From assembly GCF_902150035.1 (NCBI RefSeq), contig NZ_LR597511.1, forward strand, positions 1 to 61,822: 61,822 nt of DNA, in the 5' to 3' direction. Of the stretch, positions 1-34,247 are shown piece after piece (position 1 is the first letter of the stretch; each line of letters starts with the position of its first letter). The notes under the pieces are model-generated. The model was given only the letters and a program-made list of their open reading frames with translations. It was not told the DNA's origin and did not search any database. Both the position numbers and the translations under genes were made by a program. The stretch comes from Enorma burkinafasonensis (GTDB taxonomy: Bacteria; Actinomycetota; Coriobacteriia; Coriobacteriales; Coriobacteriaceae).

Positions 1-127
1 TCCGGACATGCCGTCCTCCGATCTCCCGGGGCCGGCCGATCCGGCCCTCAGGGTATCGGGTTCCCACATTCATCCGCACATGTGCGGATGAATGTGGGAG
101 GTGTTCGGATAAAGTTGATAATCAAGG
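1..127. repeat. Left copy of a 127-bp terminal inverted repeat
   Basis: Bases 1-127 are the exact reverse complement of 61696-61822; base 128 (t) does not match its partner 61695 (c), so the identity stops abruptly. The repeat includes a 38-bp palindrome, a Shine-Dalgarno-like gggagg at 96-101 and the first codons of the response regulator. An exact 127-base match at both ends equals a k-mer length commonly used by short-read assemblers. It may therefore mark an assembly-graph boundary in a longer inverted repeat rather than a biological end. Confidence 0.95.
62..99. repeat. 38-bp perfect palindrome upstream of the response regulator
   Basis: The two 19-base halves meet between positions 80 and 81 and are perfectly complementary (half site tcccacattcatccgcaca). 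It lies 16 bp upstream of the likely TTG start of the response regulator. A second copy lies in the right terminal repeat. It could be an operator for dimeric response-regulator binding, a hairpin in the 5' leader, or part of a larger inverted repeat. There is no T-run, so a terminator is unlikely. Confidence 0.85.
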
Positions 128-873
128 TAGCCGAAGACGACCGTGACATCGTGGAGCTCCTCACGCTCTACCTCTCGGGCAGCGGCTACAATGTCGCCGC
201 CGCCTACGACGGCGAGCAGGCGCTCGCGGTCGCGCGGGAGCGCACGGTCGACATCGCGCTCGTCGACATCATGATGCCGCGCATGAACGGCTACGACTTC
301 ATCAAGGCGTTCCGGCAGCTGAGCGCAGCACCGGTCATCATCGTCTCCGCGCGCACGCAGCCGGCCGACAAGATCGTGGGGCTCGACGCGGGCGCCGACG
401 GCTTCATCGCCAAGCCGTTCGACCCGCTCGAGGTCACGGCCTACATCCGCGCCCTGCTGCGCCGGGTCGAGCGCGACGCCGCATCCCCGGCGGGCCCCGA
501 GGGCGCTACTGGGGCGCCCGCTGGCGCGCCCCCCGCGAACCCCGAGCCGCGCGGCCAGAAGACGCCCGCGCCGAACGTCCTCACCGCGGGCGACCTCGCC
601 TTCGACACCGAGCGCCTCGCCCTCACCCGCTCCGGCCGGCCCGTCGCCCTCACCGCCGCCGAGCTCAAGATCATGGCGACCCTCATCGCGGCCCCGGGCA
701 GGGTCTTCAGCAAGGCGCAACTGTATTCCTGCATCAACGGGGAGCCGTACGCGGGGAGCGAGAACAGCGTGATGGTGCACATCTCCAACATCCGCGGTAA
801 GCTCGAGGACGACCCGCTCCACCCCCGCTACATCAAGACCGTCCGAGGACTGGGCTACCGCCTCGACGGGTAG
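115..873 (+). CDS. OmpR/PhoB-family response regulator
   Basis: An N-terminal receiver domain is followed by a low-complexity Ala/Pro-rich linker (about residues 120-150) and a C-terminal winged-helix DNA-binding domain ending in a typical YIKTVRGLGYRLDG. The acidic EDD pocket is at residues 7-9, the phospho-acceptor Asp is about residue 51 (LVDIMMP), and the conserved Lys lies in the AKPFDPLE motif. The start is uncertain: TTG at 115 follows the gggagg at 96-101 and gives a receiver of normal length, while GTG at 82 or ATG at 88 would add unusual residues encoded by the palindrome. The stop lies 13 bases before the histidine kinase, so the two are co-transcribed. The context suggests control of the adjacent dlt-like operon. 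Confidence 0.9.
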   Translation: MIIKVAEDDRDIVELLTLYLSGSGYNVAAAYDGEQALAVARERTVDIALVDIMMPRMNGYDFIKAFRQLSAAPVIIVSARTQPADKIVGLDAGADGFIAKPFDPLEVTAYIRALLRRVERDAASPAGPEGATGAPAGAPPANPEPRGQKTPAPNVLTAGDLAFDTERLALTRSGRPVALTAAELKIMATLIAAPGRVFSKAQLYSCINGEPYAGSENSVMVHISNIRGKLEDDPLHPRYIKTVRGLGYRLDG

Positions 874-886
874 AAAGGCGGATTTC

Positions 887-2533
887 ATGGACGCATCCGC
901 TCGGCCCGCGGCCGATCCCGTGCCCGAGACCCCGACCAGCCGGCTCCGCCGGCGCATCCATAGCGCGCGGACGAGCATCGCCTTCCGCTGCCTTGTCTGC
1001 ATCGTCGCGTACGCGGCGGCGCTCGCCGGGCTCTTCTGGGCGGTGAACGTCGCCGGCGACCGGCTGCTCACCAACGCGTTCCCCTCCATCGAGACGGTGC
1101 TCGCCCACGGCGACGACCTTGCGGGCGACCGCTTCGACGCGCTGCAGACGAGCGACCTCGAGAACAGCCGGATCGTGATCTTCGACGGCGACGGCAAGCG
1201 CCTGTACGCCTCGACCACCGAGGCGGGCCAGCGCATCCGCGCGACGGATCTGCCCCTCATCAACGAGTACGGCGACCGCAACTACTACGAGGTCTTCGAG
1301 GAGCCCACCGAGGACGGCATGCACTACCGCATCCTCTGGTGCTCCTACAGCACCGACGACGGCTTCAGCAAGCAGGTCGAGGCGTGGTGCGTGCTCGACG
1401 ATGAGCTGCGCATCGTCCAGGGCAACCTCTTCGCCTCGCGCGACGCCCTCACCCAGCGCGAGTTCGACTTCATCAAGGGCGTCTACAGCTCGCGCATGTC
1501 GGTCGAGCGCTACGACTACACCACCGCGGAGGGCGAGCCGCGCACGCTCGTGTTCGTCGCGCCGCTCGTGAACCTGGCCCGCTACGACGAGCTCGTCGAC
1601 GAGGCGGGCGACCTCTCGCTCTACGCCGTGCCCGTGGCGGGCGCCATCACCGCGGTGGCGGCGTGGTACCTGGTGCACCAGGTCAAGCGCGCGATCCGGC
1701 CGCTCGACGAGGCCATCGCCGCGTGCCGTCGCGACGAGGGCGCGCACGTGCGCCCCGCCGAGGTCCCCACCGAGCTCGCGAAGGTCTACGACGACTTCAG
1801 CGGCCTCATGGCCGAGCTCCGCCAGGCGCGCAACGACCAGCGCCGCATCATCGCCGACATCTCGCACGACCTCAAGACGCCGCTCACCGTGATCTACGGC
1901 TACGCCACCGCCTTCAGCGACGGGTGCGTGCCGCCCGAGCGCGAGCAGGCCTACCACCAGGTCATCGCCGAGAAGGCGCTCACGGCGAGCGAGCTCATCG
2001 ACATACTGTTCTCCTACGCCAAGATGGAGCACCCCGAGTACCGCCCCAACCTGGAGCGCGTCGACGTCGCCGACGCGGTCGCGGCGGTCGCCGAGGAGGC
2101 GCGCGCCCAGGTCGAGCAGGCGGGTTGCATGCTCGAGGTCGAGCTCGACGGCGCAAAGGAGGGCGTCCCGGCGCCCGCGGCCATGCTCGACCGCCAGCTC
2201 TTCCGCCGGATGCTGCTCAACCTCATCGGCAACGCCTGCTCGCACAACCCCGCGGGCACGCGCATCCGCGTGGGCGTGCGCCTGGGCGCGCGCGGGCGGC
2301 GCGTGCACGCCTACGTGGCGGACACGGGCGCCGGCATCCCGCCCGAGATCGCCGAGCGCATCTTCGACCCGTTCGTGACGAGCAACACCGCGCGCGTCGC
2401 CCACCAGGGCACGGGTCTGGGGCTCACCATCGCGCGGCGCTGCGCCCTGCTCATGAACGGCGAGCTGCGCTACGACGACCACCCTAACGGCCCCTGGGCG
2501 ACCGTGTTCTCGCTCGTCGTGCCGGTCGCGTAG
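887..2533 (+). CDS. Membrane sensor histidine kinase
   Basis: A 548-residue kinase with a transmembrane segment at about 32-55, an extracytoplasmic sensor region of about 190 residues, a second transmembrane segment at about 244-264 and a HAMP-like linker. The HisKA motif SHDLKTPL carries the phospho-accepting His327. The HATPase_c region has an N box (NLIGNACSHNP), a G1 box (DTGAGIPPE) and a G2 box (GTGLGLTIARR), so it looks catalytically complete. The sensor region is not recognised and resembles no PAS or dCACHE signature by eye. ATG 887 has an upstream aaagg. The kinase follows its response regulator directly and ends about 110 bp before the dltA-like gene, in the same orientation. Confidence 0.92.
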   Translation: MDASARPAADPVPETPTSRLRRRIHSARTSIAFRCLVCIVAYAAALAGLFWAVNVAGDRLLTNAFPSIETVLAHGDDLAGDRFDALQTSDLENSRIVIFDGDGKRLYASTTEAGQRIRATDLPLINEYGDRNYYEVFEEPTEDGMHYRILWCSYSTDDGFSKQVEAWCVLDDELRIVQGNLFASRDALTQREFDFIKGVYSSRMSVERYDYTTAEGEPRTLVFVAPLVNLARYDELVDEAGDLSLYAVPVAGAITAVAAWYLVHQVKRAIRPLDEAIAACRRDEGAHVRPAEVPTELAKVYDDFSGLMAELRQARNDQRRIIADISHDLKTPLTVIYGYATAFSDGCVPPEREQAYHQVIAEKALTASELIDILFSYAKMEHPEYRPNLERVDVADAVAAVAEEARAQVEQAGCMLEVELDGAKEGVPAPAAMLDRQLFRRMLLNLIGNACSHNPAGTRIRVGVRLGARGRRVHAYVADTGAGIPPEIAERIFDPFVTSNTARVAHQGTGLGLTIARRCALLMNGELRYDDHPNGPWATVFSLVVPVA

Positions 2534-2556
2534 GCGCGGCGCGGCGGGAGCCGCCC

Positions 2557-2578
2557 AACCTTAAGGAACCTTGAGGTT
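2557..2578. promoter_or_regulatory. Candidate response-regulator operator upstream of the dlt-like operon
   Basis: Two 10-base half sites, aaccttaagg and ccttgaggtt, are separated by two bases and form a 9/10 inverted repeat in the short gap between the kinase and the ligase gene. Tandem or inverted CTTAAGG-like sites are typical for OmpR-family regulators. No convincing -35/-10 pair is visible around it, so the transcription start is unknown. The assignment to the neighbouring regulator is inference. Confidence 0.4.
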
Positions 2579-2646
2579 CGCTTCAGCGACCGTAAAGCAT
2601 GCCCTCCCATACTGTGACCATCACAGGCCACCGACGGGAGGAAGCC

Positions 2647-4296
2647 ATGTTCGACACCACCGACCGCACCGATAGCGCCCCGCTCGGCGCCCCGGTGCCG
2701 CCCTCCGCCTATCGCGGGCGCGCCACCCCGCTCGCGTTCCTCGAGCGCACGGTGAGGCGCGCGCCCGGCAAGACCGCCATCGTGGACGAGTCCGGCAGCT
2801 GCACCTATGCCGAGCTCGACCGGCGCAGCCGCCGCATCGCGAGCGCGCTCATCGAGCTCGCTGCGCGGGACGCTGCCACCCGGGCGCGCGATACCGGGGG
2901 CAACCCGGGCGCCGCGGGCGGTCCCGCCGCGGACGCGCCCCGCCCGGTCGCGCTCTTCATGGAGAAGAGCTCCTGGATGGCCGCCGCGTTTCTGGGCACG
3001 CTCATGGCGGGCGGCTTCTACGTCCCCATCGACCCGTCGGTGCCCGCCGAGCGCGCGCGGCGCATCCTCGACACGCTCGGTGAGGGCACGCTCGTCGTCA
3101 CCTGCGCGGAGAGCGCCGAGGCCGCCCGGCGCGCCCTGCCCGGCGTGGAGCTTCTGGACGTTCGCGAGCTCGGTGAGCACGCCATCGACGAGCGCGCCCT
3201 CGCCCGGGCGGCCCGGGCGCTCGTGGACACCGACCCCGCCTACGTGCTCTTCACCTCCGGCTCGACCGGCACGCCCAAGGGCGTCGCCGTGAGCCATCGG
3301 GCCATCTGCGGCTTCATCGGCACCTTCGTCGACACCTTCGGCATCCGCGCCGACGACGTCCTGGGCAACCAGGCGCCCTTCGACTTCGACGTCTCGGTCA
3401 AGGACCTCTACGGCGCGCTCGCCGCGGGCGCGACCCTCGTGCTCATCCCCCGCCGGCTCTTCAGCGCGCCGGCCCTGCTCGTCGAGGAGCTCCGCCGCCG
3501 CGACGTCACGGTCATGGTCTGGGCGGTCGCCGCGCTCTGCCTGGTGAGCAGCCTGCATGCGCTCGACGGCGCCGAGCTGCCGAGCGTGCGGCTCGTGATG
3601 TTCTCGGGCGAGGTCATGCCGGCGAAGCACCTCGCGCGCTGGCTGGAGCGCCTGCCCGAGACCCTGTTCGTGAACCTCTACGGCCCCACCGAGATCACCT
3701 GCAACTGCCTCTACCACGTCGTCGACCGCGCGCGCTCCTACGAGGACGGGCTGCCGCTCGGCGAGGCGTTCCGCAACCGCCGCGTGCGCGCCATCGACCC
3801 CGCGACGGGCGCGCCGGCGGAGGCGGGCGGGACCGGCGAGCTCTACGTGGGCGGGCCGGACATCGCGCTCGGCTACTACGCCGACCCCGTGCGCACGCAG
3901 GCGGCCTTCGTGCCCGACCCGCTCGGCGGGAGCCTGCCGCAGACCTTCTACCGCACCGGCGATATGGTGCGCGTGGGCGCGGCGGGCGAGCTCTTCTTCG
4001 CCGGGCGCGTCGACAACCAGATCAAGCACCAGGGCCACCGCATCGAGCTCGAGGAGATCGATGCCGCCTTCGAGCGCCAGGGCGGGGTCGAGCGCTGCCG
4101 CTGCGCCTACGACGCGCGGCGGGGGCGCATCGTCGCCTGCTACGAGGGCACGGCCGACGCGGCCGAGCTCAGGCGGGCCGTCGCCCGGATCCTGCCCGGC
4201 CCCATGGTGCCCCAGGCCATCCTGCGCGTCGAGCGGATGCCGCTCACCAAGAACGGCAAGGTCGACCGCGCGGCGCTGCTCGCCCTGCGCCCGTAA
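2647..4296 (+). CDS. dltA: DltA-like AMP-forming amino-acid:carrier-protein ligase
   Basis: A 549-residue ANL-superfamily enzyme that should adenylate an amino acid and load it on the carrier protein encoded two genes downstream. Visible core motifs are the P-loop FTSGSTGTPKG (about 202-212), FDFDVSVKD (246-253), YGPTEIT (345-351), YRTGDM (435-440), the GRVDNQIKHQGHRIELEEID hinge (453-472) and the catalytic Lys538 in NGKVDR. It is closer to DltA than to other ligases. However, the Cys of the DltA FCGE motif, implicated in D-alanine selection, is Ser320 here (FSGE), and a low-complexity insert sits at about 76-98. ATG 2647 is chosen for its gggagga Shine-Dalgarno; an ATG at 2599 lacks one. The substrate may not be D-alanine (see findings). 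Confidence 0.88.
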   Translation: MFDTTDRTDSAPLGAPVPPSAYRGRATPLAFLERTVRRAPGKTAIVDESGSCTYAELDRRSRRIASALIELAARDAATRARDTGGNPGAAGGPAADAPRPVALFMEKSSWMAAAFLGTLMAGGFYVPIDPSVPAERARRILDTLGEGTLVVTCAESAEAARRALPGVELLDVRELGEHAIDERALARAARALVDTDPAYVLFTSGSTGTPKGVAVSHRAICGFIGTFVDTFGIRADDVLGNQAPFDFDVSVKDLYGALAAGATLVLIPRRLFSAPALLVEELRRRDVTVMVWAVAALCLVSSLHALDGAELPSVRLVMFSGEVMPAKHLARWLERLPETLFVNLYGPTEITCNCLYHVVDRARSYEDGLPLGEAFRNRRVRAIDPATGAPAEAGGTGELYVGGPDIALGYYADPVRTQAAFVPDPLGGSLPQTFYRTGDMVRVGAAGELFFAGRVDNQIKHQGHRIELEEIDAAFERQGGVERCRCAYDARRGRIVACYEGTADAAELRRAVARILPGPMVPQAILRVERMPLTKNGKVDRAALLALRP

Positions 4297-4398
4297 GACG
4301 CCACCACCCGCCCCGGCGCGCCCGCTGAGGCTGCCGTGCGGCATGCCCACCCGGACGCGCCCGCACCGTCCCCGACCATCCTCCCGAAAGGAGCCGTC

Positions 4399-5691
4399 AT
4401 GCAAACCGACCTCCGTCAGCTCGCCGTCGCCTTCGGCACGCCGCTCTACGCCTTCGACGCCCGCGCCCTCGCCGAGCGCGTGCGCGTCCTGCGCGCGGCG
4501 CTCCCCCAAGGCACCGGCATCTGCTTCGCCATCAAGGCGAACCCCTTCGTCCTGCCTGAGCTCGAGCCCCTGATCGACCGGCTCGAGGTCTGCTCGCCCG
4601 GCGAGTACCGCATCTGCGAGGCGCTCGGCCTCGCGCACGGCAAGCTCGTGGTCTCGGGCGTGCACAAGGACGCCGAGACCGTCGAGTCCGCCATCGCCGC
4701 GGACGCCCTCCCCGCCGCCATCACCGTGGAGTCGCTCGAGCAGCTCGACCTGGTCGTGCGCACGGCATCGTGGCGCGGGGTGCGCGTGCCGGTGCTTCTG
4801 CGCCTCACGAGCGGCAACCAGTTCGGCATGGCGCCTAACGACCTTATCGCCGCGGTCCGCCAGCTCAAGCGCGCCGCCTACATCGACCTCAGGGGCATCC
4901 AGTTCTTCTCGGGCACGCAGAAGACCTCGCTCAAGCGCATCGCGCGCGAGCTCGCGCGCCTCGACGCCTTCATGCGGGAGCTCGACGAGACGTGCGGCTG
5001 GATGCCGCCCGAGCTCGAGTACGGCCCCGGCCTGCCTGTCGCCTACTTCGAGGGCGACGCGTTCGACGAGGCGGCCTACCTGACCGAGTTCTCCGAGCTG
5101 CTCGAGGGCATGGAGTTTTCCGGCCGCATCACGCTCGAGCTCGGGCGGAGCCTCGTCGCCGCATCGGGCACCTACCTCACGCGCGTGGTGGACACCAAGG
5201 TGAACGGCGGGCAACGCTATGCCATCGTCGACGGCGGGATCCACCAGCTCGTCTACTACGGGCAGTCGATGGCGATGCACCAGCCGCCCGTCCGCCTGCT
5301 CGATGCCGGCCGAAGCGCGCTCGCGGCACACGGCGAGGACGCGGCTCGCAGCGCCGCCGATGCGGCCCGGACCGCCGCCGATACCGCGGCTCGCGGCGCC
5401 ATCGCCCACGCGGACGCCTCCCCCGCCGGTGCCTGGACCGTCTGCGGGTCGCTCTGCACCGTGAACGACATCCTCGCGAAGCAGCTCCCGCTGGCCGGCC
5501 TCGAGGTGGGCGACATCCTCGCCTTCGAGCGCACCGGCGCCTACAGCATGACCGAGGGCATCTCGCTCTTCCTGAGCCGCGACCTGCCCGCCGTCGTCGT
5601 CATCGGCGAGGACGGCGCGCCCGCGCTCGTCCGCGACGCGCTGCGCACCGACATCATCAACACGCCGCTCGCCCAGCTCGGCTCACGCTAG
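4399..5691 (+). CDS. Fold-III PLP-dependent decarboxylase (LysA/BtrK-like)
   Basis: A 430-residue protein with the alanine-racemase-like TIM barrel and C-terminal beta domain of the ornithine/diaminopimelate decarboxylase group. The PLP lysine is Lys46 (CFAIKANPF). Further landmarks are CSPGEY (65-70), GIQFFSGTQK (166-175, replacing the HVGSQ motif of LysA), ELGRSLVA (248-255), the catalytic-type Cys353 in CGSLCTVND and the ERTGAYSMTEG segment near 377. An Ala-rich insert lies at about 305-345. The length is typical of carrier-protein-dependent decarboxylases such as BtrK. It sits between the ligase and the carrier, which suggests it acts on a carrier-bound amino acid. Automatic annotation may call it alanine racemase. 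ATG 4399 has a gaaaggag Shine-Dalgarno. Confidence 0.82.
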   Translation: MQTDLRQLAVAFGTPLYAFDARALAERVRVLRAALPQGTGICFAIKANPFVLPELEPLIDRLEVCSPGEYRICEALGLAHGKLVVSGVHKDAETVESAIAADALPAAITVESLEQLDLVVRTASWRGVRVPVLLRLTSGNQFGMAPNDLIAAVRQLKRAAYIDLRGIQFFSGTQKTSLKRIARELARLDAFMRELDETCGWMPPELEYGPGLPVAYFEGDAFDEAAYLTEFSELLEGMEFSGRITLELGRSLVAASGTYLTRVVDTKVNGGQRYAIVDGGIHQLVYYGQSMAMHQPPVRLLDAGRSALAAHGEDAARSAADAARTAADTAARGAIAHADASPAGAWTVCGSLCTVNDILAKQLPLAGLEVGDILAFERTGAYSMTEGISLFLSRDLPAVVVIGEDGAPALVRDALRTDIINTPLAQLGSR

Positions 5692-5763
5692 CGGCGAGGT
5701 CGCCCGACCGCTCTCTTTTGCAACGTCTCTCCGACAGCGTCTCCCCAACAGAAAGGACCTACC

Positions 5764-5997
5764 ATGGACGCCATCCTCGATATCCTGAACGAACTCAAGC
5801 CCGGCGTGGACTACGCCGAGCGCCGCGACCTCGTCGACGCGCGCGAGCTCGACTCGCTCACCATCCTGAGCCTCGTGTCCGAGCTCGAGGACACCTTCGA
5901 CATCACCATCCCCGCCGTGGAAATCGTCCCCGCCAACTTCAACTCGCTCGCCGGTATCTGGGCGATGGTGGAGCGCCTGCGCGAGGCCGGGTTCTAG
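5764..5997 (+). CDS. dltC: DltC-like acyl/aminoacyl carrier protein
   Basis: A 77-residue acidic helical protein with the phosphopantetheine attachment motif ELDSLTI, serine 31. Its length is that of DltC and ordinary carrier proteins. It should be converted to holo form by a phosphopantetheinyl transferase, which is not encoded in this window. It would carry the aminoacyl thioester made by the DltA-like ligase and possibly processed by the PLP decarboxylase. The gene has an agaaagga Shine-Dalgarno and lies 9 bases before the MBOAT gene, so translation is probably coupled. Confidence 0.9.
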   Translation: MDAILDILNELKPGVDYAERRDLVDARELDSLTILSLVSELEDTFDITIPAVEIVPANFNSLAGIWAMVERLREAGF

Positions 5998-6006
5998 GGG
6001 GCCGCC

Positions 6007-7701
6007 ATGCACGCGTACCTCTCGCTCACGGTCCTGGGCGTCTTCCTGCCCGCGACCATGCTCTGCTACCAGGTCGCGCCCCGTCGCGCGCGGCCGGGCG
6101 TGCTGCTCGCGGCGAGCTACCTCTTCTTCTGGCTCATGAGCGGCGAGCTCACGGTGTACCTCGCGCTCTCCACCGTGAGCATCTGGGCGCTCGGGCTCGC
6201 GCTCGACGGCCAGATCAGACGGCGCGCCCGGGCGCTTAAGGAGCCCGGGGCCGACCGCCGCGCCGTGAAGCGCGCCTTCGCGCGGCGGATGCGCGCCGTG
6301 CTCGCGGCGGGCGTCGCCCTGAACTTCGGCGTGCTCTTCGCGTTCAAGTACCTCGGGTTCGCCGAGGAGGTGACCCGGGCGCTCCTCGCGGCGCTCCCCG
6401 GCGGGCTCGCGGACGCGCTCCCTATGGTCGAGCCCGCCGTCGCCGCGCCCATCGGCATCTCGTTCTACACGCTGCAGGCCATCTCGTACCTGGTCGACGT
6501 CTATCGGCAGAGCATCACGGCCGACCGCAACCTCGCGCGCGTGGCGCTCTTCCTCTCGTTCTTCCCCGCGATCATGGAGGGGCCCATCTGCCGCTACGGC
6601 GAGACCGCGCAGGCGCTGTGGGCCGGCCACCCGATCACCTGGCCGGCGGTCGCCTGCGGCGCCGAGCGGATCGCCTGGGGCCTCGCCAAGAAGCTCATCG
6701 TGGCCGATAGGGTGAACCTGCTCGTGAAGAACGTCTTCGCGAGCCCTAGCGCCTATGACGGCGGTGTGATCGCGCTCGCCGCGGTGCTCTACACGGTGCA
6801 GCTGTACTGCGATTTCTCGGGAACGATGGATTTCGTGGTCGGCGCCGGGCGGATCTTCGGCGTGCGCATGCCCGAGAACTTCCGTCAGCCGTTCTTCTCG
6901 CGCACCGGGTCCGAGTTCTGGCAGCGCTGGCACATCACCCTCGGCACGTGGTTCCGCGATTACGTGTTCTACCCCGTCTCACTCAGCAAGCCGGTCAAGC
7001 ACCTCACCACCCACGTGCGCCGCGTGGCCGGCAACCGCCTGGGGCCGCTCGTCACGAGCGGGATCGCGCTTCTGTGCGTGTGGCTCGGCAACGGGCTCTG
7101 GCACGGCGCCGGCGGGCAGTACGTGCTCTTCGGCCTGTTCTGGTTCGCGGTCATCTGGGTCGGCGGCCTCATGGAGCCCGTGGCGCAGGCGGTCTGTGAG
7201 CGGATGGGCATCGACCGCGCAGGTGCGCCCTACCGGGCAATGCAGCATGCGCGCACGCTCGCCGTCGTCTTCTGCGGGGAGCTCATCTTCCGCGCGGAGG
7301 GCACTGCGGCGGCGCTCGCCATGCTCGACCGGCTCTTCACGGGCTTCACGCTCGCGTCCTTCCGCGACGGGACGGTGCTCGCGCTCGGCATGGACGCCGG
7401 CGACTTCGCCTGCGTCGCCGTGGCCTGCGCGGTGCTGCTCGCCGTGGGCCTCGTGCGCGAGCGCGGGCTGGGCGGTGCGGGCGCTTCCGCCCCGGACGCG
7501 GGTACAGCCCCGGGCGCGGGCGCCCCTGCCGCGAGCGCTCCCGGAACCGCCGCCGCGACGCCCAGCGGGCGCCTCGCCCGCGCGGTCGACTCGCCCAGCC
7601 TGCGCTGGGCCGCCGCCTGCGCCATCGTCCTCATCGTCGTCGTCTTCGGCGCCTACGGGGCGGGCTATGTGCCGGTCGACCCCATGTACGCCTCGTTCTA
7701 G
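6007..7701 (+). CDS. dltB: MBOAT-family acyltransferase, DltB-like
   Basis: A 564-residue polytopic membrane protein. The conserved MBOAT features are visible: the amphipathic segment EFWQRWHITL with His309 and the active-site-like His366 in NGLWHGAG. In canonical dlt systems DltB passes the aminoacyl group from DltC across the membrane to DltD or an acceptor. A low-complexity Ala/Gly/Pro stretch at about 480-515 precedes the last transmembrane helix and is absent from typical DltB. The start ATG is 9 bases after the carrier gene, with gggggcc upstream. The acceptor polymer cannot be deduced from the sequence. Confidence 0.9.
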   Translation: MHAYLSLTVLGVFLPATMLCYQVAPRRARPGVLLAASYLFFWLMSGELTVYLALSTVSIWALGLALDGQIRRRARALKEPGADRRAVKRAFARRMRAVLAAGVALNFGVLFAFKYLGFAEEVTRALLAALPGGLADALPMVEPAVAAPIGISFYTLQAISYLVDVYRQSITADRNLARVALFLSFFPAIMEGPICRYGETAQALWAGHPITWPAVACGAERIAWGLAKKLIVADRVNLLVKNVFASPSAYDGGVIALAAVLYTVQLYCDFSGTMDFVVGAGRIFGVRMPENFRQPFFSRTGSEFWQRWHITLGTWFRDYVFYPVSLSKPVKHLTTHVRRVAGNRLGPLVTSGIALLCVWLGNGLWHGAGGQYVLFGLFWFAVIWVGGLMEPVAQAVCERMGIDRAGAPYRAMQHARTLAVVFCGELIFRAEGTAAALAMLDRLFTGFTLASFRDGTVLALGMDAGDFACVAVACAVLLAVGLVRERGLGGAGASAPDAGTAPGAGAPAASAPGTAAATPSGRLARAVDSPSLRWAAACAIVLIVVVFGAYGAGYVPVDPMYASF

Positions 7702-7712
7702 GGAGCTCTCCC

Positions 7713-8714
7713 ATGTCTTCCAAGCATCCGCGCCGACGCGCCGTCCTGACGGTCGCCGCGAGCGCGCTCATCCTCTGCGCCCTGCTGGCGCTCGCCTCGC
7801 GCATCGTCGCGCCCAAGAACAACCAGGCCGAGTTCGGCCAGATCGACGCCGAGGCCCACGGGGTGCTCGGCGAGCCCGAGGACTCCATCGACGTCCTCGT
7901 ACTCGGCGATTCCGAGGCGTACTGCGCCTTTTCGCCGCTCCAGCTATGGGGCGAGCAGGGCATCACCTCGTATGTGTGCGCCACGAGCGGCCAGCCCCTG
8001 CCGTACACGCGCTCGCTGCTCACACAGGCGCTCGGGCGGCAGCACCCGCGCGTCGTCGTGCTCGAGACGAACTGCCTCTTCCGCAGCTTCACCCCCGGCT
8101 ACGCGCTGCTCCGCGGCGCGCAGGACCTCTTCCCCGTGCTCGAGTACCACAACCGCTGGAAGTCGCTGCGCGCGGAGGATGTCACGTCGACGCCGCGCGC
8201 CACCTGGTCCGATGAGTACAAGGGCCACAAGGTGAAGACCGACGTCGCGGCCGCCGACGATGCGGGCTACATGGCGCCGACCGAGAACGTCGCCGTGATC
8301 CCCATCCTCAACTACTGGTACGTGCAGGACATCGCGCGCATCTGCCGCGACAACGGCGCCGAGCTCCTGTTGGTGAGCACGCCGAGCACCAAGAACTGGA
8401 ACACGGCGCGTCACGAGCGCACCGCCGAGCTCGCGCACGAGCTCGGGGTCGCATACCTCGACCTGAACTGGCAGGATACCCGGGTCGCGATCGACTGGCG
8501 GCTCGACACCTGCGACGCGGGCGACCACCTCAACGAGCGCGGCGCGCAGAAGACCACCCATGCCCTCGGCGAGGCGCTGCGCGCGGGCTTCGATGTGCCC
8601 GACCACCGCGGCGATGCCGATTTCGCCACATGGAACGATGCGTGCGCGCGCTACCGCCGGCAGGTGGACGCCATCGTGTGGCCGGACGCCGCCGCGCCGG
8701 ATGCGAGCGCGTAG
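7713..8714 (+). CDS. SGNH-hydrolase-fold membrane-anchored protein, DltD-like
   Basis: A 333-residue protein with one N-terminal transmembrane anchor (about 10-30) and an extracytoplasmic SGNH-like domain. The nucleophile block is VLGDSEAY with Ser67, and a D-H pair at 271-272 (GDHLNERG) fits the C-terminal catalytic motif. The position after the MBOAT gene, 11 bases downstream, is that of DltD. It probably completes transfer of the aminoacyl group to a surface polymer. It is only distantly DltD-like by eye and could also be related to AlgX/WssI-type acetyltransfer partners. It is the last gene of the operon. Confidence 0.75.
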   Translation: MSSKHPRRRAVLTVAASALILCALLALASRIVAPKNNQAEFGQIDAEAHGVLGEPEDSIDVLVLGDSEAYCAFSPLQLWGEQGITSYVCATSGQPLPYTRSLLTQALGRQHPRVVVLETNCLFRSFTPGYALLRGAQDLFPVLEYHNRWKSLRAEDVTSTPRATWSDEYKGHKVKTDVAAADDAGYMAPTENVAVIPILNYWYVQDIARICRDNGAELLLVSTPSTKNWNTARHERTAELAHELGVAYLDLNWQDTRVAIDWRLDTCDAGDHLNERGAQKTTHALGEALRAGFDVPDHRGDADFATWNDACARYRRQVDAIVWPDAAAPDASA

Positions 8715-8730
8715 CCAGGAGGCACGGCCC

Positions 8731-8802
8731 GCATGGGGCCGCGCGGCCGGCGCCCCGTCGCGCCCCGCATAGGGCCGTGCGGCCGGCGCCCCGTCGCGCC
8801 CC
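8731..8802. repeat. Two tandem 36-bp GC-rich repeats
   Basis: Positions 8731-8766 and 8767-8802 are head-to-tail copies of a 36-base unit with two differences (g/a and c/t). They lie directly after the DltD-like gene and before a hairpin. The unit is almost entirely G and C and contains smaller self-complementary stretches. It may be a slipped-strand duplication with no function. Confidence 0.85.
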
Positions 8803-8821
8803 ACTTCATTACAACTCGGAT

Positions 8822-8849
8822 ACCGCGCGCGATCGTCGTCGCGCGCGGT
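8822..8849 (+). terminator. GC-rich hairpin downstream of the dlt-like operon
   Basis: An 11-bp perfect stem, accgcgcgcga with tcgcgcgcggt, encloses a 6-base loop. There is no T-tract, so termination would be weak or factor-assisted. It also lies in the leader of the DAHP synthase gene, where it could stabilise the 5' end of the transcript. Confidence 0.45.
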
Positions 8850-8913
8850 GGGCGCAGCAGGCATAATAGACCGCACGAAACATACCGTCGCCCGGCTACG
8901 AAGGGTCACCACC

Positions 8914-9942
8914 ATGTCCATGAAGTTCAAGCGCCTGCTCCCCATCCCCAAGGAGATCCGCGAGGAGATGCCGCTCGCCGCCGAGACCGCGGCCAAGAAG
9001 CACGCCTTCGACGCGCAGGTCGCCGCCATCCTCACCGGCGAGGACGACCGCCGCCTGCTCATCGTGGGCCCCTGCTCCGCCGACCGCGAGGACTCCGTCC
9101 TCGAGTACGCCACGCGCCTCGCCGGGCTCGCCGAGCGCGTGCGCGACCGCCTGCTCATCGTCCCGCGCGTCTACACCAACAAGCCGCGCACCAAGGGCAC
9201 CGGCTACAAGGGCCTGCTGCACAACCCCGATCCCGAGGGCCCCAGCGACCTGCTCGGCGGCATCAAGGCCATCCGCCGCATGCACCTGCGCGTGGCGGAG
9301 GAGACCGGCATGTTCACCGCCGACGAGATGCTCTACCCCACCAACTACCAGTACCTCATCGACGTGCTGGGCTACATCGCCGTGGGCGCACGCTCGGTCG
9401 AGAACCAGGAGCACCGCCTCGTCGCGTCGGGCGTGACCATGCCCGTGGGCATGAAGAACCCCACCGGCGGCTCGACAAGCGTGATGCTCAACTCGATCTT
9501 CGCCGCCCAGCAGCCGCAGACCTTCATCTTCCGCAACTGGGAGGTCGAGACCTCGGGCAACCCGCTCGCGCACGCGGTGCTGCGCGGCTACATCGGCGAG
9601 GACGGGCTCAACTACCCCAACTACCACTACGAGTACCTCGAGCGCCTCGCCGAGAAGTACACGGAGGCCGATTTTGCCAACCCCGCCGTGATCGTCGACT
9701 GCAACCACGACAACTCCGGCAAGCGGCCGCTTGAGCAGATCCGTATCAGCCACGAGGTCGCCGACTCCATGCGCCGGTCCGAGACCATCCGCCACATGGT
9801 GCGCGGCTTCATGGTCGAAAGCTACCTCGAGGACGGCAACCAGCCGCTCGACGGCGGCGTGTACGGCAAGTCCATCACCGATGCCTGCCTGGGCTGGGAG
9901 AAGACCGAGCGCCTGGTGCTCGACCTCGCCGAGCGCATCTAA
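8914..9942 (+). CDS. aroF: Class I 3-deoxy-7-phosphoheptulonate (DAHP) synthase
   Basis: A 342-residue enzyme for the first step of the shikimate pathway, condensing phosphoenolpyruvate with erythrose 4-phosphate. Type I (AroFGH) motifs are visible: LLIVGPCSADRED near 45-57, PRVYTNKPRTKGTGYKG near 79-95, GARSVENQEHR near 153-163, MPVGMKNPTGGS near 171-183 and DCNHDNSGK near 262-270. The length fits the family. ATG 8914 has aaggg 8 bases upstream; ATG 8920 is an alternative. A -10-like cataat lies upstream at about 8863. It is monocistronic, with a strong hairpin after the stop. Confidence 0.93.
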   Translation: MSMKFKRLLPIPKEIREEMPLAAETAAKKHAFDAQVAAILTGEDDRRLLIVGPCSADREDSVLEYATRLAGLAERVRDRLLIVPRVYTNKPRTKGTGYKGLLHNPDPEGPSDLLGGIKAIRRMHLRVAEETGMFTADEMLYPTNYQYLIDVLGYIAVGARSVENQEHRLVASGVTMPVGMKNPTGGSTSVMLNSIFAAQQPQTFIFRNWEVETSGNPLAHAVLRGYIGEDGLNYPNYHYEYLERLAEKYTEADFANPAVIVDCNHDNSGKRPLEQIRISHEVADSMRRSETIRHMVRGFMVESYLEDGNQPLDGGVYGKSITDACLGWEKTERLVLDLAERI

Positions 9943-9961
9943 CACCCACCCGATAGCTCAC

Positions 9962-9994
9962 GCGCGGCGCGCACCTTCGGTCCGCGCGCCGCGC
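9962..9994 (+). terminator. Hairpin after the DAHP synthase gene
   Basis: An 11-bp perfect stem (gcgcggcgcgc and its complement) with an 11-base loop lies 20 bases after the stop codon. It is followed by aaatca rather than a T-run. It probably marks the 3' end of the aroF transcript. Confidence 0.5.
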
Positions 9995-10123
9995 AAATCA
10001 CGGCCCGTATGGCGCCGTCCGCCTTCCTTGGAGTTTTCCGGAAGCGAGTGCCTGCATCTTCATGCGGTGAACGGCCGTGCTGTTCTGCCCGCAAATCCGC
10101 AGGTCGCAGAAAGCCCAGCCTGC

Positions 10124-10161
10124 GTCTGCCCTGCGAGCGCGAGAGCAGACATTCTTTTTTT
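10124..10161 (+). terminator. Possible intrinsic terminator inside the 704-bp gap
   Basis: A 6-bp stem, gtctgc with gcagac, encloses a 15-base loop and is followed by attcttttttt. It lies about 180 bases past the DAHP synthase stop, after another hairpin. It could therefore end an unannotated small transcript from 9995-10160, in which no credible ORF is visible. Confidence 0.45.
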
Positions 10162-10272
10162 AATATCTATTCCGCTTCTTTACGCGGACGTTTTCCCAGC
10201 TCGATTCCAATAGATGCTGGCTTTTGTTCTCGCGGTGACCGGGATGGCTCCACCCGTTGCGCCGAGACTCCA

Positions 10273-10395
10273 CGAAAGTGAGAACTAACCGGCGGCATGT
10301 CGCGTAGCCGAGCCATGCTCCCCGATCGACCCGCTGGTAGCGGAGACGGAGATCTCTCGGCTACGCCTTGACCCCCTGGTTAGCTCTCACTTTCG
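10273..10395. repeat. Large imperfect palindrome A1 (123 bp)
   Basis: An 18-base outer arm (cgaaagtgagaactaacc) pairs with the far end with one mismatch. A second symmetric 10-bp stem, cgtagccgag (10303-10312) with ctcggctacg (10356-10365), lies at the same distance from the centre. An apical hairpin ccgct-ggt-agcgg is near the centre. It lies between convergent genes and is one of seven related elements in the window. It is followed 80 bases later by element A2, as B1 is followed by B2. Confidence 0.8.
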
Positions 10396-10475
10396 GCACG
10401 TTTCCCGACGGCCGCGTCTCCACAACGCACGGCATCTTGATGCCGTGCGCCCTTGGATAACCGCACGCGGCGCCT

Positions 10476-10614
10476 GTTTTTCAAATAGTTGGTGCCTTTA
10501 TCGCGGGGTATCGGGTAGAGCGGGCGCGGACGTCGCTTAATACGCAGGAACAGAGCCCAGCGTTCCCGCATCTACTACGCAGGTCCCCGATAAGGTACCG
10601 ACTACCTGAAAAAG
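10476..10614. repeat. Large imperfect palindrome A2 (139 bp)
   Basis: The ends tttttcaaatagttggtgcc and its partner (aaggtaccgactacctgaaa and following) are complementary apart from a few wobble or mismatch positions. GCAGG lies at the exact centre (10544-10548). A gtag motif (10515-10518) and a ctac motif (10572-10575) are placed nearly symmetrically. It is clearly homologous to B2 at 17180-17316, sharing several internal blocks. Between A1 and A2 is a small hairpin (gcacggcat with atgccgtgc) around 10431-10452. Confidence 0.8.
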
Positions 10615-10646
10615 TGTTCTAGACCGCACTCCGACACGGGCAGCGC

Positions 10647-11303
10647 CTACCCGAGCGCGCCTGAGCCTAGCAGGTCTCGCACCTCGAGCAGGCTCGCGCA
10701 GATGCGGCTCGCGATGCGGCGCATCTCGTCGTCGGGCGCAGCCAGGTCGGGCACCATCACCGTGCAGAACCCGCCCGCGACGCCGGCACGGACGCCGTTG
10801 AAGGAGTCCTCGAGCACGAGCGCACGGGACGGCTCGGCGCCGAGCGCCCGCGCCGCCTTGAGGAATACATCGGGCGCCGGTTTGGCGTGCTCGACCTCAA
10901 GGCTCGAGATCACGGCGCCGAAGTAGCGCCGAACGCCAGCCGTGTCGAGGTGATGCGCGATGTCCTCCGGCGTTGAGGATGAGGCGACGGCCATGGGGAC
11001 GCCCTGCTCATCGAGATATCCGAGCAGCTCGTCGAGGCCGGGCTTCTTCTCGACACCGAGCCGGAAGCGCTCGGCCGCGACCTCGTGCCACACGTCCCAT
11101 AACCGCTGCGCATCGACATCGGCACCGAACCAGGCGTGCACCACCTCGGCGAACTCCGCGCCCGCGGTACCGCGCGCGGCGTCGGCGATACCTTCCTTCA
11201 TCGGGAGCCCCATGCGCGCCAGCGCGGGCTCCCAGCAGGCGCCCCAGACCTTCTCGGTATCGAACATGAGGCCGTCCATGTCAAAAATCACGCCATCGAA
11301 CAC
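10647..11303 (-). CDS. HAD-superfamily phosphatase (beta-phosphoglucomutase/PGP-like)
   Basis: A 218-residue hydrolase with motif I FDMDGLMFD (Asp8, Asp10), motif II AVASSSTP, the conserved Lys in KPAPDVFLKAA and the acidic motif LVLEDSFNGVRAG. The helical cap inserted after motif I places it in the subfamily that contains beta-phosphoglucomutases and small sugar-phosphate phosphatases. The substrate cannot be deduced. It has its own upstream region and converges with the non-coding elements A1/A2. Confidence 0.85.
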   Translation of the reverse strand: MFDGVIFDMDGLMFDTEKVWGACWEPALARMGLPMKEGIADAARGTAGAEFAEVVHAWFGADVDAQRLWDVWHEVAAERFRLGVEKKPGLDELLGYLDEQGVPMAVASSSTPEDIAHHLDTAGVRRYFGAVISSLEVEHAKPAPDVFLKAARALGAEPSRALVLEDSFNGVRAGVAGGFCTVMVPDLAAPDDEMRRIASRICASLLEVRDLLGSGALG

Positions 11304-11357
11304 GGGAAACCCCTTCCATCGTCACAGTGGCCGGTGCCGAAAGCACCGCGCCGGATA

Positions 11358-13106
11358 CTACATACCATCCGCGCCGCCGCGCCAGCGGTCGATGCAGGCG
11401 CAGAGGTCCTGCGGGCGCGGGAGCGCGAGCCCGCAGGCGACCTCGCCGTGCGGGGAGATCTCGCGCCAGCCGCGGCGGCGGACGCGCTCGATGAGGTCGG
11501 CGGCGAGCTCGGCCACGGGGCGCCGACCGTCTGCGAGGCCTCGCTCGACGATGGCGCGCATGAGCTGCGCGAGCGCACGCACCTGCTCCGGGTCGACGAG
11601 CTGCTCCGTGCGCCGCAGGTCGACCGTGCCGCTCCCAACGGAGAAGCCGTCGAGCCCCTGGGTGCGCACCTTGAGCCCCCGGCCAGCGCCGCTTCGGGCA
11701 GCGCCCCGGTCGCGCTCACGGCCGCGGGCACCGGACACGCCAACCCGCACGGCACGGTCGCGATCCCCCACGACGTCGCTGTCACCCTCCGGAGCCTCCA
11801 GCCCGCGGGCCGTGCAGACCACGCGCACCCGCTCGGTCGCGTCCGCGGCGCGATAGCGATCCATCAAGATCACGGTATCGGCGACCGGGAAGAACGCACC
11901 CGAGCTGCCGACCACGATAATCGAGCTCACGCCTTGGCGCTCCCAGAGGCCGCGGACGCGTTCCACGAAGGGTGTGATGGGCTCGCGCTCGGCGGCGACC
12001 ACCGAGGCCATCAGCTCGTCGCGCACCATGAAGTTCGTGGCCGAGGTGTCCTCGTCGATGAGCAGCACGCGGGCACCGGCCTCGATAGCCTCCACGGTCG
12101 CCGCGGCCTGCGAGGTGCTGCCGCTCGCATCGAGCGTGGAGAAGCGCGCCGTGTCGCGCCCGTCGGGGAGATTCGCGATGAATGGCGAGACATCGACCGC
12201 TGTGACCGGCCGTCCGTCCTCGGAGCGAACCTTCATCGCCGTGGCGTCCGTGATGACGAGCTCGCGCCCGTCGCCCAGCACGTGGTCGTAGATACCCTCC
12301 TGCAGGGCCTTGAGCAGCGTCGACTTGCCATGGTAGCCGCCACCCACCACCAAGGTGACGCCGCGGGGGATGCCCATGCCGCGCGTCTGCCCGCGGTGGG
12401 GCAGATCGAGCGTGACGCTCAGGCTCTCCGGCGCCTCGAAGGGCACCGCACCCGCAAGCGGGCGCGCCGAGACGCCGCTCGCCCGCGGCAGGACCGAGCC
12501 GTCCGCCACGAACGCCACCAGCCCACGCCGCTCGAGCTCACGGCGCACGGCGAGCTGGTCGTCGGCGAGCTCGGCAGCGGAGCGCGCGGCGGCGAGCGCG
12601 TTCCGGTCGCACACGAGCGCGCGCTCGGCGCACGCGGGGATGAGGTCGAGAAGCATGCGGCCGAGCGCCCGGGCGTCGACGGTCCTCCCGTGCGCGGGGA
12701 AGCCCGCCTCGAGACGGAGCGTCACCGACCCGTCATCGGCGACCTCGCAGGCCGAGCGCTCGAGCACCTCGGGCCCGGGCGCGCTCGTCGCGATGAGGCC
12801 GCTTTTCCCCGAGCCCCGCACCGTGAAACTCGCCCGCGCGGCCTCGGCGGCGAAGCGGCGCACGAGCAGGTCCTCGAGGGCGACCCTGCGATGAGGGGCG
12901 TCGATGAGGTCGCTGGGAAACTCCGCCGCCTCAGCCGAGACGCACACGCTCACCTGCGACGGCGCCGCGAAGGGGTCGCCCTGCACATGGTCGATCGAGA
13001 GGACGAACGGCCCGAAGTCGTACGCTCCCTTGAGCGATTTGTACGCCGAGTAGCCGCGGCCGTCGATGGCGCGCAGCCGCCGCTCCAGGTCCATATCGGT
13101 CGCCAT
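11358..13106 (-). CDS. ABC-class ATPase (ABC_ATPase family, PF09818-like)
   Basis: A 582-residue cytosolic protein of a family described only as predicted ATPases of the ABC class. A P-loop-like GGGYHGKSTLL sits mid-protein, with a signature-like GSTSQAA region and a Walker-B-like segment VLLIDEDTSATNFM. No transmembrane segments are visible, so it is not a transporter. An internal stretch near residues 455-495 is low complexity. GTG 13112 or ATG 13106 both fit the upstream ggggaggt; ATG is used. The function is unknown. Confidence 0.8.
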   Translation of the reverse strand: MATDMDLERRLRAIDGRGYSAYKSLKGAYDFGPFVLSIDHVQGDPFAAPSQVSVCVSAEAAEFPSDLIDAPHRRVALEDLLVRRFAAEAARASFTVRGSGKSGLIATSAPGPEVLERSACEVADDGSVTLRLEAGFPAHGRTVDARALGRMLLDLIPACAERALVCDRNALAAARSAAELADDQLAVRRELERRGLVAFVADGSVLPRASGVSARPLAGAVPFEAPESLSVTLDLPHRGQTRGMGIPRGVTLVVGGGYHGKSTLLKALQEGIYDHVLGDGRELVITDATAMKVRSEDGRPVTAVDVSPFIANLPDGRDTARFSTLDASGSTSQAAATVEAIEAGARVLLIDEDTSATNFMVRDELMASVVAAEREPITPFVERVRGLWERQGVSSIIVVGSSGAFFPVADTVILMDRYRAADATERVRVVCTARGLEAPEGDSDVVGDRDRAVRVGVSGARGRERDRGAARSGAGRGLKVRTQGLDGFSVGSGTVDLRRTEQLVDPEQVRALAQLMRAIVERGLADGRRPVAELAADLIERVRRRGWREISPHGEVACGLALPRPQDLCACIDRWRGGADGM

Positions 13107-27635: not shown

Positions 27636-29051
27636 ATGGACGCATTCGTCAACGGCTTTTTCGCTGCGTTCCAAGCGATCATCGATGCCGGCGCCTACGT
27701 TATGCTGCCGATCATCATCACCGTGCTCGGCCTGATCTTCGGCCTTAAGTTCAGCAAGGCGTTCAAGGCGGGCATCACCATCGACATCGGCTTCGCCGGC
27801 ATCAACCTGGTCACCCAGCTCATGAAGGACCAGCTCGGCCCCGCCGCGCAGGCCATGGTCGAGAACTTCGGCGTGCAGCTCGACGTCCTCGACGTGGGCT
27901 GGAGCGCGCTTGCCTCCGTCGCCTGGGCGTCGCCGATCGTCCCGCTCATCGTGCTCGAGGTCATCGCCATCAACATCATCATGCTCGCGGTGCGCATGAC
28001 CAACACGCTCGACGTCGACATCTGGAACTACCACTCGATGCTCACCTGCGGCGGCCTCGTGTTCTTCGTGACCGGCAACATCGTGTGGGCGCTCGTGGCC
28101 TCCGGCCTCATGGCGGTCATCACCTTCAAGTTCGCCGACTGGTCGCAGCCGCTCGTGTCCAAGTTCTTCGGTATCCCCAACGTCTCGCTGCCGCACGTCC
28201 CCGCCGCGAGCTCGCTGATCATCGCCGCGCCGATGAACTGGCTGCTCGACCGCATCCCGGGCGTCAAGGACATCGACCTCAACCTCTCCGGCGTCAAGAA
28301 GTACCTCGGCTTCTTCGGCGAGCCTTGGATGCTCGGCCTGATCCTGGGCTGCATCATCGGCGCCCTCGCCAAGTACGACATCGCCGGCATCTTCACCCTC
28401 GGCGTCTACATGTCCGCCGTCATGGTGCTCCTGCCCCGCATGACCGTTCTCTTCGTCGAGGGCCTCATGCCGGTCTCCAGCGCCGCCAGCAAGTTCTGCA
28501 AGAAGCGCTTCAAGGGTCGTGAGTTCAGCATCGGCCTCGACGCCGCTGTGGTCGTGGGTAACGACTCCGTCATCACCCTCGCCCTGCTCATGGTGCCGAT
28601 CACCCTGCTGCTCGCCGTAATCCTGCCCGGCAACCACATGCTGCCGTTCGCCGACCTCGCGGTCATCACCTTCCGCGTCTGCCTGGTCGTTGCCCTCTGC
28701 CGCGGCAACATGTTCCGCTCGCTGATCATCGCCTGCGTCGTCATGACCGCGATCCTGTACGCCGGCACCGCTGCCGCCCCCTACATGACCGCCTTCGCCT
28801 CCAGCGCCGGCCTTGACTTCGACAGCCTGATCGCCTCCACCTGCGGCCCGTCGCTCACCATGAGCGCCATGCTCTTCTGGAGCTGCATCACCAACCCGGT
28901 CGTCTTCATCCCTGCCATCGTGGTCGTCTTCGCCGCCGTGTACTTCTTCATCGAGAAGAAGGTCGGCATGAACCGCATCCAGGCCTACGCCGAGGGCAAG
29001 ACCCTCGAGGAGTACGAGGCCGAGCAGGCCGAGGCCGCTACCGAAGAGTAG
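27636..29051 (+). CDS. PTS EIIC component, galactitol (GatC) family
   Basis: A 471-residue integral membrane permease with about 11-12 hydrophobic segments and the GatC-family profile. Members transport galactitol, arabitol and related polyols or acids, so the family does not fix the substrate. The last 25 residues are an acidic cytoplasmic tail. It has gaggagg upstream. A strong intrinsic terminator follows 60 bases after the stop. Confidence 0.9.
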   Translation: MDAFVNGFFAAFQAIIDAGAYVMLPIIITVLGLIFGLKFSKAFKAGITIDIGFAGINLVTQLMKDQLGPAAQAMVENFGVQLDVLDVGWSALASVAWASPIVPLIVLEVIAINIIMLAVRMTNTLDVDIWNYHSMLTCGGLVFFVTGNIVWALVASGLMAVITFKFADWSQPLVSKFFGIPNVSLPHVPAASSLIIAAPMNWLLDRIPGVKDIDLNLSGVKKYLGFFGEPWMLGLILGCIIGALAKYDIAGIFTLGVYMSAVMVLLPRMTVLFVEGLMPVSSAASKFCKKRFKGREFSIGLDAAVVVGNDSVITLALLMVPITLLLAVILPGNHMLPFADLAVITFRVCLVVALCRGNMFRSLIIACVVMTAILYAGTAAAPYMTAFASSAGLDFDSLIASTCGPSLTMSAMLFWSCITNPVVFIPAIVVVFAAVYFFIEKKVGMNRIQAYAEGKTLEEYEAEQAEAATEE

Positions 29052-29109
29052 TCCCTCCTTCGAACGCATGGCCTAGCGGCACACTCTCCCCAGTCAGCCC
29101 GCCATGCAT

Positions 29110-29150
29110 CGGGCGGGCATCTGGATCCCAGGATGCCCGCCCGTTTTTTA
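29110..29150 (+). terminator. Intrinsic terminator between PTS EIIC and the dehydrogenase genes
   Basis: A perfect 12-bp stem, cgggcgggcatc with gatgcccgcccg, encloses a 10-base loop and is followed by six T residues. It is the best rho-independent terminator in the window. It lies inside an otherwise unidirectional gene series, 26 bases before the next start codon, and should reduce read-through to the downstream catabolic genes. Confidence 0.85.
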
Positions 29151-29175
29151 TCCGCAGACTGCAAGAAAGGTTCCC

Positions 29176-30171: not shown

Positions 30172-30230
30172 GGGCTTTTTGTGGCAGAAGGCCGCGACGC
30201 GGCCGTACCGACCTTTGGAGGTAATCCGAC

Positions 30231-31325: not shown

Positions 31326-31467
31326 CCACATGGCTGCAGGGTGGCCGCGCGTCGCCCTGCAGCCCGCTGCCGGAGGGGCACGCGCACGCGCGCCCCTCCG
31401 GCAGCGCCGCCATCCGCACGGGTCGGGTGGCGGCGGACTCTGGAACACCATTCGCACGGAGGTACAC

Positions 31468-33108: not shown

Positions 33109-33117
33109 GGGGCGGCC

Positions 33118-33948: not shown

Positions 33949-33950
33949 AC

Positions 33951-34247
33951 ATGAGCAAACGAGGCCTGCGCATGGCCGAGGCCGACGACGTCGTGACCCT
34001 GCTCGGCGAGACCTGCGCCGGCGACACCGTCGACGTCATGGACAAGAAGACCGGTGCGTGCGTCGCGCACGTGGTCGCCAAAGACGACGCCCCGGTCTAC
34101 CACAAGCTCGCCCTGCACGACATCGCCCGCGGCGACGAGGTGCGCAAGTACGGCGAGATCATCGGCGTCGCGACCGCCGACATCCCGCAGGGCGCCTACG
34201 TCCATGTCCACAACATCGAAAGCGCGAAAACGAGGAACCATGACTGA
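33951..34247 (+). CDS. UxaA-type dehydratase small subunit (SAF domain)
   Basis: A 98-residue SAF-domain protein corresponding to the N-terminal part of altronate and galactarate dehydratases (UxaA/GarD family). The ending IPQGAYVHVHNIE is characteristic. The large part is encoded by the next gene, whose start codon overlaps the last codons of this one (34240-34247), so the two subunits are translationally coupled. Split forms of this enzyme are common in anaerobes. Confidence 0.88.
   Translation: MSKRGLRMAEADDVVTLLGETCAGDTVDVMDKKTGACVAHVVAKDDAPVYHKLALHDIARGDEVRKYGEIIGVATADIPQGAYVHVHNIESAKTRNHD

Follow-up and report, generated by a model that had tools for sequence, protein, structure and literature searches.

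A five-gene operon on the plus strand of the analysed stretch of Enorma burkinafasonensis DNA (61,822 nucleotides, hereafter the window) probably directs an unusual form of MBOAT-SGNH polymer acylation, for which the substrate, the decarboxylation on the carrier, the transfer and the acceptor are predictions. With a probability of roughly 0.6, it specifies a hybrid pathway of envelope aminoacylation: an acidic amino acid would be decarboxylated while bound to its carrier protein and the resulting omega-amino acyl group placed as an ester on a surface polymer.

Organization and recurrence of the operon

The window, contig C37, belongs to a genome assembly of 48 contigs totalling 2.23 Mb. Five open reading frames lie head to tail on its plus strand between positions 2647 and 8714 and encode a stand-alone amino-acid adenylating ligase (2647–4296), a fold-III PLP decarboxylase (4399–5691), a carrier protein of 77 residues (5764–5997), an MBOAT acyltransferase (6007–7701) and a putative membrane-anchored SGNH acyltransferase (7713–8714). 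The genes are separated by 102, 72, 9 and 11 bp, with no terminator-like site on the plus strand between them, and the ligase, decarboxylase and MBOAT each have one match in the genome of the window. The order ligase, PLP decarboxylase, carrier, MBOAT and DltD-like protein given by the original prediction is confirmed by these collinear frames, by the family matches of the first four proteins and by the fold of the last.

The operon is preceded on the same strand by an OmpR/PhoB-type response regulator (82–873; Pfam Response_reg and Trans_reg_C) and a sensor histidine kinase (887–2533; Pfam HisKA and HATPase_c). The start codon of the regulator is uncertain, since a perfect 18+18 bp palindrome at 63–98 (CCCACATTCATCCGCACA/TGTGCGGATGAATGTGGG), just 5' of the gene, overlaps the listed GTG start and the true start may be downstream. 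Three copies of CYTNAG spaced by 10–11 bp (CTTAAG at 2560, CTTGAG at 2570 and CTTCAG at 2581) form a candidate response-regulator site on the plus strand at 2560–2586. Pairs of CYTNAG at this spacing number 22 in 18 of 53 upstream regions (the window and 17 of the 52 others), whereas dinucleotide shuffling yields 0.075 on average; this contrast is somewhat inflated because the motif was picked after these sequences had been viewed. The copies lie one helical turn apart, as would suit a regulator of the OmpR type, and the adjacent two-component system likely controls the operon through these repeats. The envelope-stress role originally suggested is conjectural, the neighbouring regulatory pair and the repeats speaking for regulation in general. 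An Rfam scan of positions 1–12000 gave no match. Elsewhere in the window, inspection by eye suggests a protein with an N-terminal macro domain of the ADP-ribose binding type (42986–44110) and a sugar-acid or polyol cluster (27636–35418) containing genes for a PTS-like transporter, a hydroxyacid dehydrogenase, a glycerol-dehydrogenase-like protein and a dehydratase.

The decarboxylase, used as query, retrieves 75 loci, among them a group of 55 closely related ones (L002–L056) in Coriobacteriia and Bacillota. A genome survey for the five-gene order, proposed along with the original prediction, recovers it in 50 of these 55 homologous loci (Actinomycetota and Bacillota), a recurrence that exceeds chance; of the remaining five, four are truncated where their contigs end and L036 has a permuted order. 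Since the loci were fetched via the decarboxylase, the enzyme is tied to the set, but this is not proof that every such set has it. Homologues of the response regulator and histidine kinase occur in the fetched flanks of 32 of the 55 loci. Beyond this pair, clustering of the flanking genes reveals no relevant recurrent genes and no conserved polymer genes, in a comparison built on mechanically called reading frames that may miss small genes. The distribution of the operon is patchy, because a decarboxylase match at E 1e-60 is present in just 40 of 298 sampled Coriobacteriia genomes.

A second operon type (L123–L128, L130 and L131) combines a ligase carrying the same FDVSVKD, FSGEVMP and TCNC motifs with a sister decarboxylase and a carrier. 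Where its C-terminus is visible, the MBOAT of this type is a different protein ending in GGF[MI]YAN[FY], with the tail motif FMYAN[FY] or FIYANF. As the same unit is paired with a different MBOAT, the ligase, decarboxylase and carrier seem to travel together as a cassette. One locus of this type (L123) encodes two MBOATs and three SGNH-like proteins. A separate locus in the genome of the window, L135 (G000:C29:21780-22838), encodes a fold-I decarboxylase akin to diaminobutyrate and PanP aspartate decarboxylases, with scores below the cut-offs.

The ligase pocket and the decarboxylase

The ligase has an AMP-binding match and exceeds the cut-off of the amino-acid adenylation model TIGR01733 (AA-adenyl-dom) with 336.8 bits, while its 247.9 bits against the DltA model TIGR01734 fall under the cut-off of 559.85. 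None of the 48 operon-bearing genomes contains a DltA over the TIGR01734 cut-off. The pocket of the window ligase reads D-V-K-A-M-S-L-C-N-K and conforms to the code D-V-K-[SA]-[LMF]-S-[LV]-C-N-K common to all 53 ligases, formed by D235, V236, K239, S/A278, L/M/F299, S301, L/V322, C330, N331 and K517 in textbook GrsA numbering, set by eye on the motifs. D235, V236, K239, S301, C330, N331 and K517 are invariant. Two canonical DltA-like controls, from Thermophilibacter provencensis and an uncultured Atopobiaceae bacterium (458–469 bits against the DltA model and also below its cut-off), read D-L-Y at positions 235, 236 and 239 and T, V and A at 322, 330 and 331; the operon pocket differs from these two at positions 236, 239, 301, 322, 330 and 331.

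This divergence argues against ordinary D-alanyl esters as the product of the operon, with the PLP protein acting as a D-alanine-supplying racemase or a metabolic hitch-hiker, a reading suggested by the kinship of the ligase to DltA, by the match of Pfam Ala_racemase_N to the PLP protein and by the lack of a canonical DltA over the cut-off elsewhere in the genome. The PLP protein retains the decarboxylase C-terminal domain and the G[SA]LC cysteine, and in every untruncated locus except one its gene is flanked by those of the ligase and the carrier, in a set fetched via this very enzyme. Taken with these features, D-alanylation is very unlikely.

The invariant Lys239 is the likely partner of a substrate carboxylate. 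A lysine at the same position is present in DAKDLGVV, the code of the first surfactin A domain, to which Glu/Asp is assigned (PMC10548584); as the surfactin residue concerns activation of Glu at the alpha-carboxyl, the role of Lys239 with a side-chain-activated substrate is a guess. Asp235 and Lys517 constitute the alpha-amino-acid signature of A domains (PMC12283262). The original prediction that the ligase loads an amino acid with a second carboxylate is thus favoured by a pocket unlike that of canonical DltA and by an invariant lysine fit for carboxylate binding, the particular amino acid being surmised. Judging from the pocket, the substrate of the ligase would be a dicarboxylic amino acid, most probably glutamate or aspartate, that is activated at its side-chain carboxyl and then attached to the carrier. 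A PLP decarboxylase requires an amino group adjacent to the carboxyl that is lost, so the side-chain carboxyl must be the loaded one. Glutamate with GABA and aspartate with beta-alanine cannot be distinguished as substrate and product by sequence.

The decarboxylase is matched by Pfam Orn_DAP_Arg_deC and Orn_Arg_deC_N. Lys47 and Cys354 are invariant in 50 sequences, and the KAN PLP lysine and the G[SA]LC cysteine, which in the window lies in the C-terminal domain within GSLCTVNDIL, are retained in motifs that align with BtrK. A profile of the 50 members retrieves BtrK first from the PDB (5.8e-51), followed by SbnH and then by diaminopimelate decarboxylase (DAPDC), the lead of BtrK over DAPDC being small (176.7 vs 161.7 bits). 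Similarly, the AF2 model (pLDDT 88) finds BtrK (7ru7) as the top Foldseek match, with DAPDC close behind by E-value. In a maximum-likelihood tree the operon enzymes and those of the second type form one clade (support 100/100) apart from the sampled LysA sequences, and BtrK is unplaced near the base, not joined to the operon clade. The BtrK-like character originally proposed holds to the extent that the enzyme falls in the BtrK/DAPDC group, with BtrK as its best PDB match by both profile and fold. Its best NCBIfam match is TIGR03099, of the exosortase-A-associated ligase/decarboxylase pair TIGR03098/TIGR03099, at 167.2 bits; the operon proteins are far below the cut-offs of the two models (478.45 for TIGR03099 and 592.35).

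Identity with LysA was rejected, since the enzyme scores 157.7 bits against TIGR01048 (cut-off 297.9), lacks the RP..Y motif and resides in a genome without dapB. The DAPDC motif NDLxRPxxY is replaced by HQLVYYGQSMAM in the operon decarboxylases, and the long DAPDC stretch before QFG is shortened to TSGNQFG. Neither dapB nor a further lysA was found in the genome of the window, which is 99.96% complete and in which no diaminopimelate route to lysine is visible. In most of the other 47 genomes at least one additional LysA-family match is present, so the operon enzyme is not a LysA substitute there. Together these observations indicate that the enzyme is not the LysA of the genome, and both a LysA role and a diaminopimelate substrate fit poorly. 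Loading of diaminopimelate at one alpha-carboxyl and decarboxylation at the other centre, leaving a lysyl group on the polymer, would accord with the close relationship to DAPDC and with the alpha-amino-acid signature Asp235 and Lys517 retained in the ligase (signature: PMC12283262); however, a genome without dapB and lysA should not make diaminopimelate and the distal RP..Y motif of DAPDC is missing, which renders this substrate very unlikely.

Decarboxylation of a carrier-bound glutamate or aspartate has its models in two biosynthetic systems. In the BtrJ/BtrI/BtrK system of butirosin, a fold-III PLP decarboxylase also stands beside a carrier, and BtrK converts the glutamyl-carrier to the GABA-carrier; the product there goes to an antibiotic and BtrJ, unlike the operon ligase, is not known as an adenylation enzyme of the NRPS type. 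Decarboxylation on the carrier has been shown for BtrK (PMC7857480) and for VinO, whose partner VinN loads 3-methylaspartate (PMC11284099). In the beta-amino acid macrolactam systems represented by VinN/VinL/VinO and by FlvN, 3-methylaspartate or aspartate is attached to a free-standing carrier by an adenylation enzyme that is itself free-standing, much as proposed here, whereas the product primes a polyketide synthase and not a membrane acyltransferase; the likeness drawn here concerns the logic of the steps. Judged by this analogy, VinN/VinL/VinO is a closer precedent than BtrK for loading followed by decarboxylation. Kinship to BtrK and the VinN/VinO and FlvN precedents suggest that the decarboxylase strips the alpha-carboxyl on the carrier to leave a GABA or beta-alanyl thioester.

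The steps can also occur in reverse order, as IdnL3 decarboxylates free beta-glutamate ahead of loading (PMC11284099). A free amino acid such as aspartate, glutamate or beta-glutamate would then be decarboxylated first and the omega-amino acid loaded afterwards, with the same surface product. Such a sequence is improbable here: the invariant Lys239 suggests that the substrate carboxylate is present at activation, BtrK, the top match in the PDB, depends on a carrier, and VinN accepts 3-methylaspartate but not the decarboxylated 3-aminoisobutyrate (PMC11284099).

The putative acyl shuttle and the possible surface acceptor

With loading followed by decarboxylation as the preferred order, the omega-amino acyl thioester would be delivered to a membrane apparatus that resembles the Dlt pathway (DltA-DltC-DltB-DltX-DltD). 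Both comprise an adenylating ligase, a small carrier, an MBOAT and an SGNH protein in one operon and use a carrier-borne donor. Unlike Dlt, the present operon adds a decarboxylase and has a different ligase pocket, its parts score below the DltA, DltB and DltC cut-offs, a separate DltX was not found and its last protein is not DltD by sequence. The carrier (Pfam PP-binding) displays a DSL phosphopantetheine site whose serine is kept in the family alignment and reaches 28.3 bits against DltC PRK05087 (cut-off 68). The MBOAT (Pfam MBOAT) has a WHG histidine, the presumed catalytic residue, conserved in the family alignment and reaches 145.2 bits against DltB TIGR04091 (cut-off 375).

The MBOAT ends in the putative acyl-shuttle motif DPMYASF-COOH, and the codons of the terminal hexapeptide PMYASF (7681–7698, plus strand) specify a candidate DltX/PatA-like shuttle whose tyrosine is predicted to bear the acyl group. 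The tail PxYAxF, in fuller form [DEPN]P[MIL]YAxF, is found in 53 of 54 copies; the remaining one, at L024, is truncated where the contig ends. Compared with the FXYXXF shuttle, the tyrosine and terminal phenylalanine are kept in the same 53 copies and the first phenylalanine is proline. The FXYXXF shuttle, acylated at its tyrosine, is carried by the DltX microprotein in Dlt and is fused to the MBOAT in PatA, according to a paper in which fused shuttles are described with acyl-CoA donors only (PMC12148441). In the operon the putative shuttle is fused to the MBOAT, yet a carrier protein has to act as donor. No separate DltX lies within the operon, where the largest gap is 102 bp. The earlier reading of the operon had missed both the fused motif and the absence of a separate DltX. 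Two Atopobiaceae genomes (L121 and L122) have the operon plus a canonical dlt-like set; in Thermophilibacter (L122) this set includes a DltB-like protein without the motif and a separate reading frame ending in FIYDSF, as expected of DltX, and serves as an internal control. The arrangement resembles PatA/PatB peptidoglycan O-acetylation, in which a tyrosine shuttle motif is fused to the MBOAT C-terminus, as the putative one is here, and an SGNH partner is present; in contrast, PatA uses acetyl-CoA, the present operon has a carrier protein, and the first phenylalanine of the motif is proline in the window type. The conserved motif suggests that the acyl group crosses the membrane by way of the MBOAT and ends up on the tyrosine of the enzyme's own PxYAxF tail, an acylation step shown elsewhere for DltX and PatA (PMC12148441).

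The last protein of the operon displays an N-terminal helix and the motifs GDSE and DxGDHLN. It has no Pfam or NCBIfam match, DltD being absent from its Pfam results even at E 5, and its sequence profile finds no credible match in the PDB. The AF2 model (mean pLDDT 95) adopts an SGNH fold that matches TesA, PatB and OatA at Z of about 13–14, with DltD among the weaker Foldseek matches. The label "DltD-like" is therefore apt for fold class and position but not for sequence family. This protein would hand the acyl group to a polymer of the cell surface, which would then bear a cationic ester instead of D-alanine.

The pathway may operate as proposed and the acceptor be a glycolipid, an exopolysaccharide or a secreted small molecule instead of teichoic acid. 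The lack of conserved polymer genes around the operon, the sequence divergence of the last protein from DltD and a search for the glycerophosphotransferase PF04464 that found none in the genome of the window all point in this direction. Against this, the studied MBOAT and SGNH pairs act on envelope polymers (PMC12148441), and the genome encodes two proteins resembling LtaS, although both score far under the cut-off of that family. A non-teichoic acceptor is accordingly plausible, if on the unlikely side.

A possible surface chemistry in gut Coriobacteriia and Bacillota

The recurrent gene set may define a conserved class of envelope-polymer modification, patchy in gut Coriobacteriia and Bacillota. 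An acidic amino acid would be loaded and then lose a carboxyl group on the carrier, and its export via the fused acyl-tyrosine shuttle would leave the polymer with a GABA or beta-alanyl ester; we regard the chances of this wider reading as about even. In the open-licence papers searched, the gene set is without description and nothing relevant to teichoic acids esterified with GABA or beta-alanine was found. Mild-base-labile GABA or beta-alanine is predicted on the envelope, for which the cultured species Enorma massiliensis and Coprococcus catus are suitable.

In many Gram-positive bacteria, surface charge and resistance to cationic peptides are under the control of teichoic acid D-alanylation. 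Should the operon attach another amino acid, one that has been decarboxylated, common gut bacteria would possess a new kind of surface chemistry and an MBOAT system that combines dependence on a carrier with a fused shuttle.
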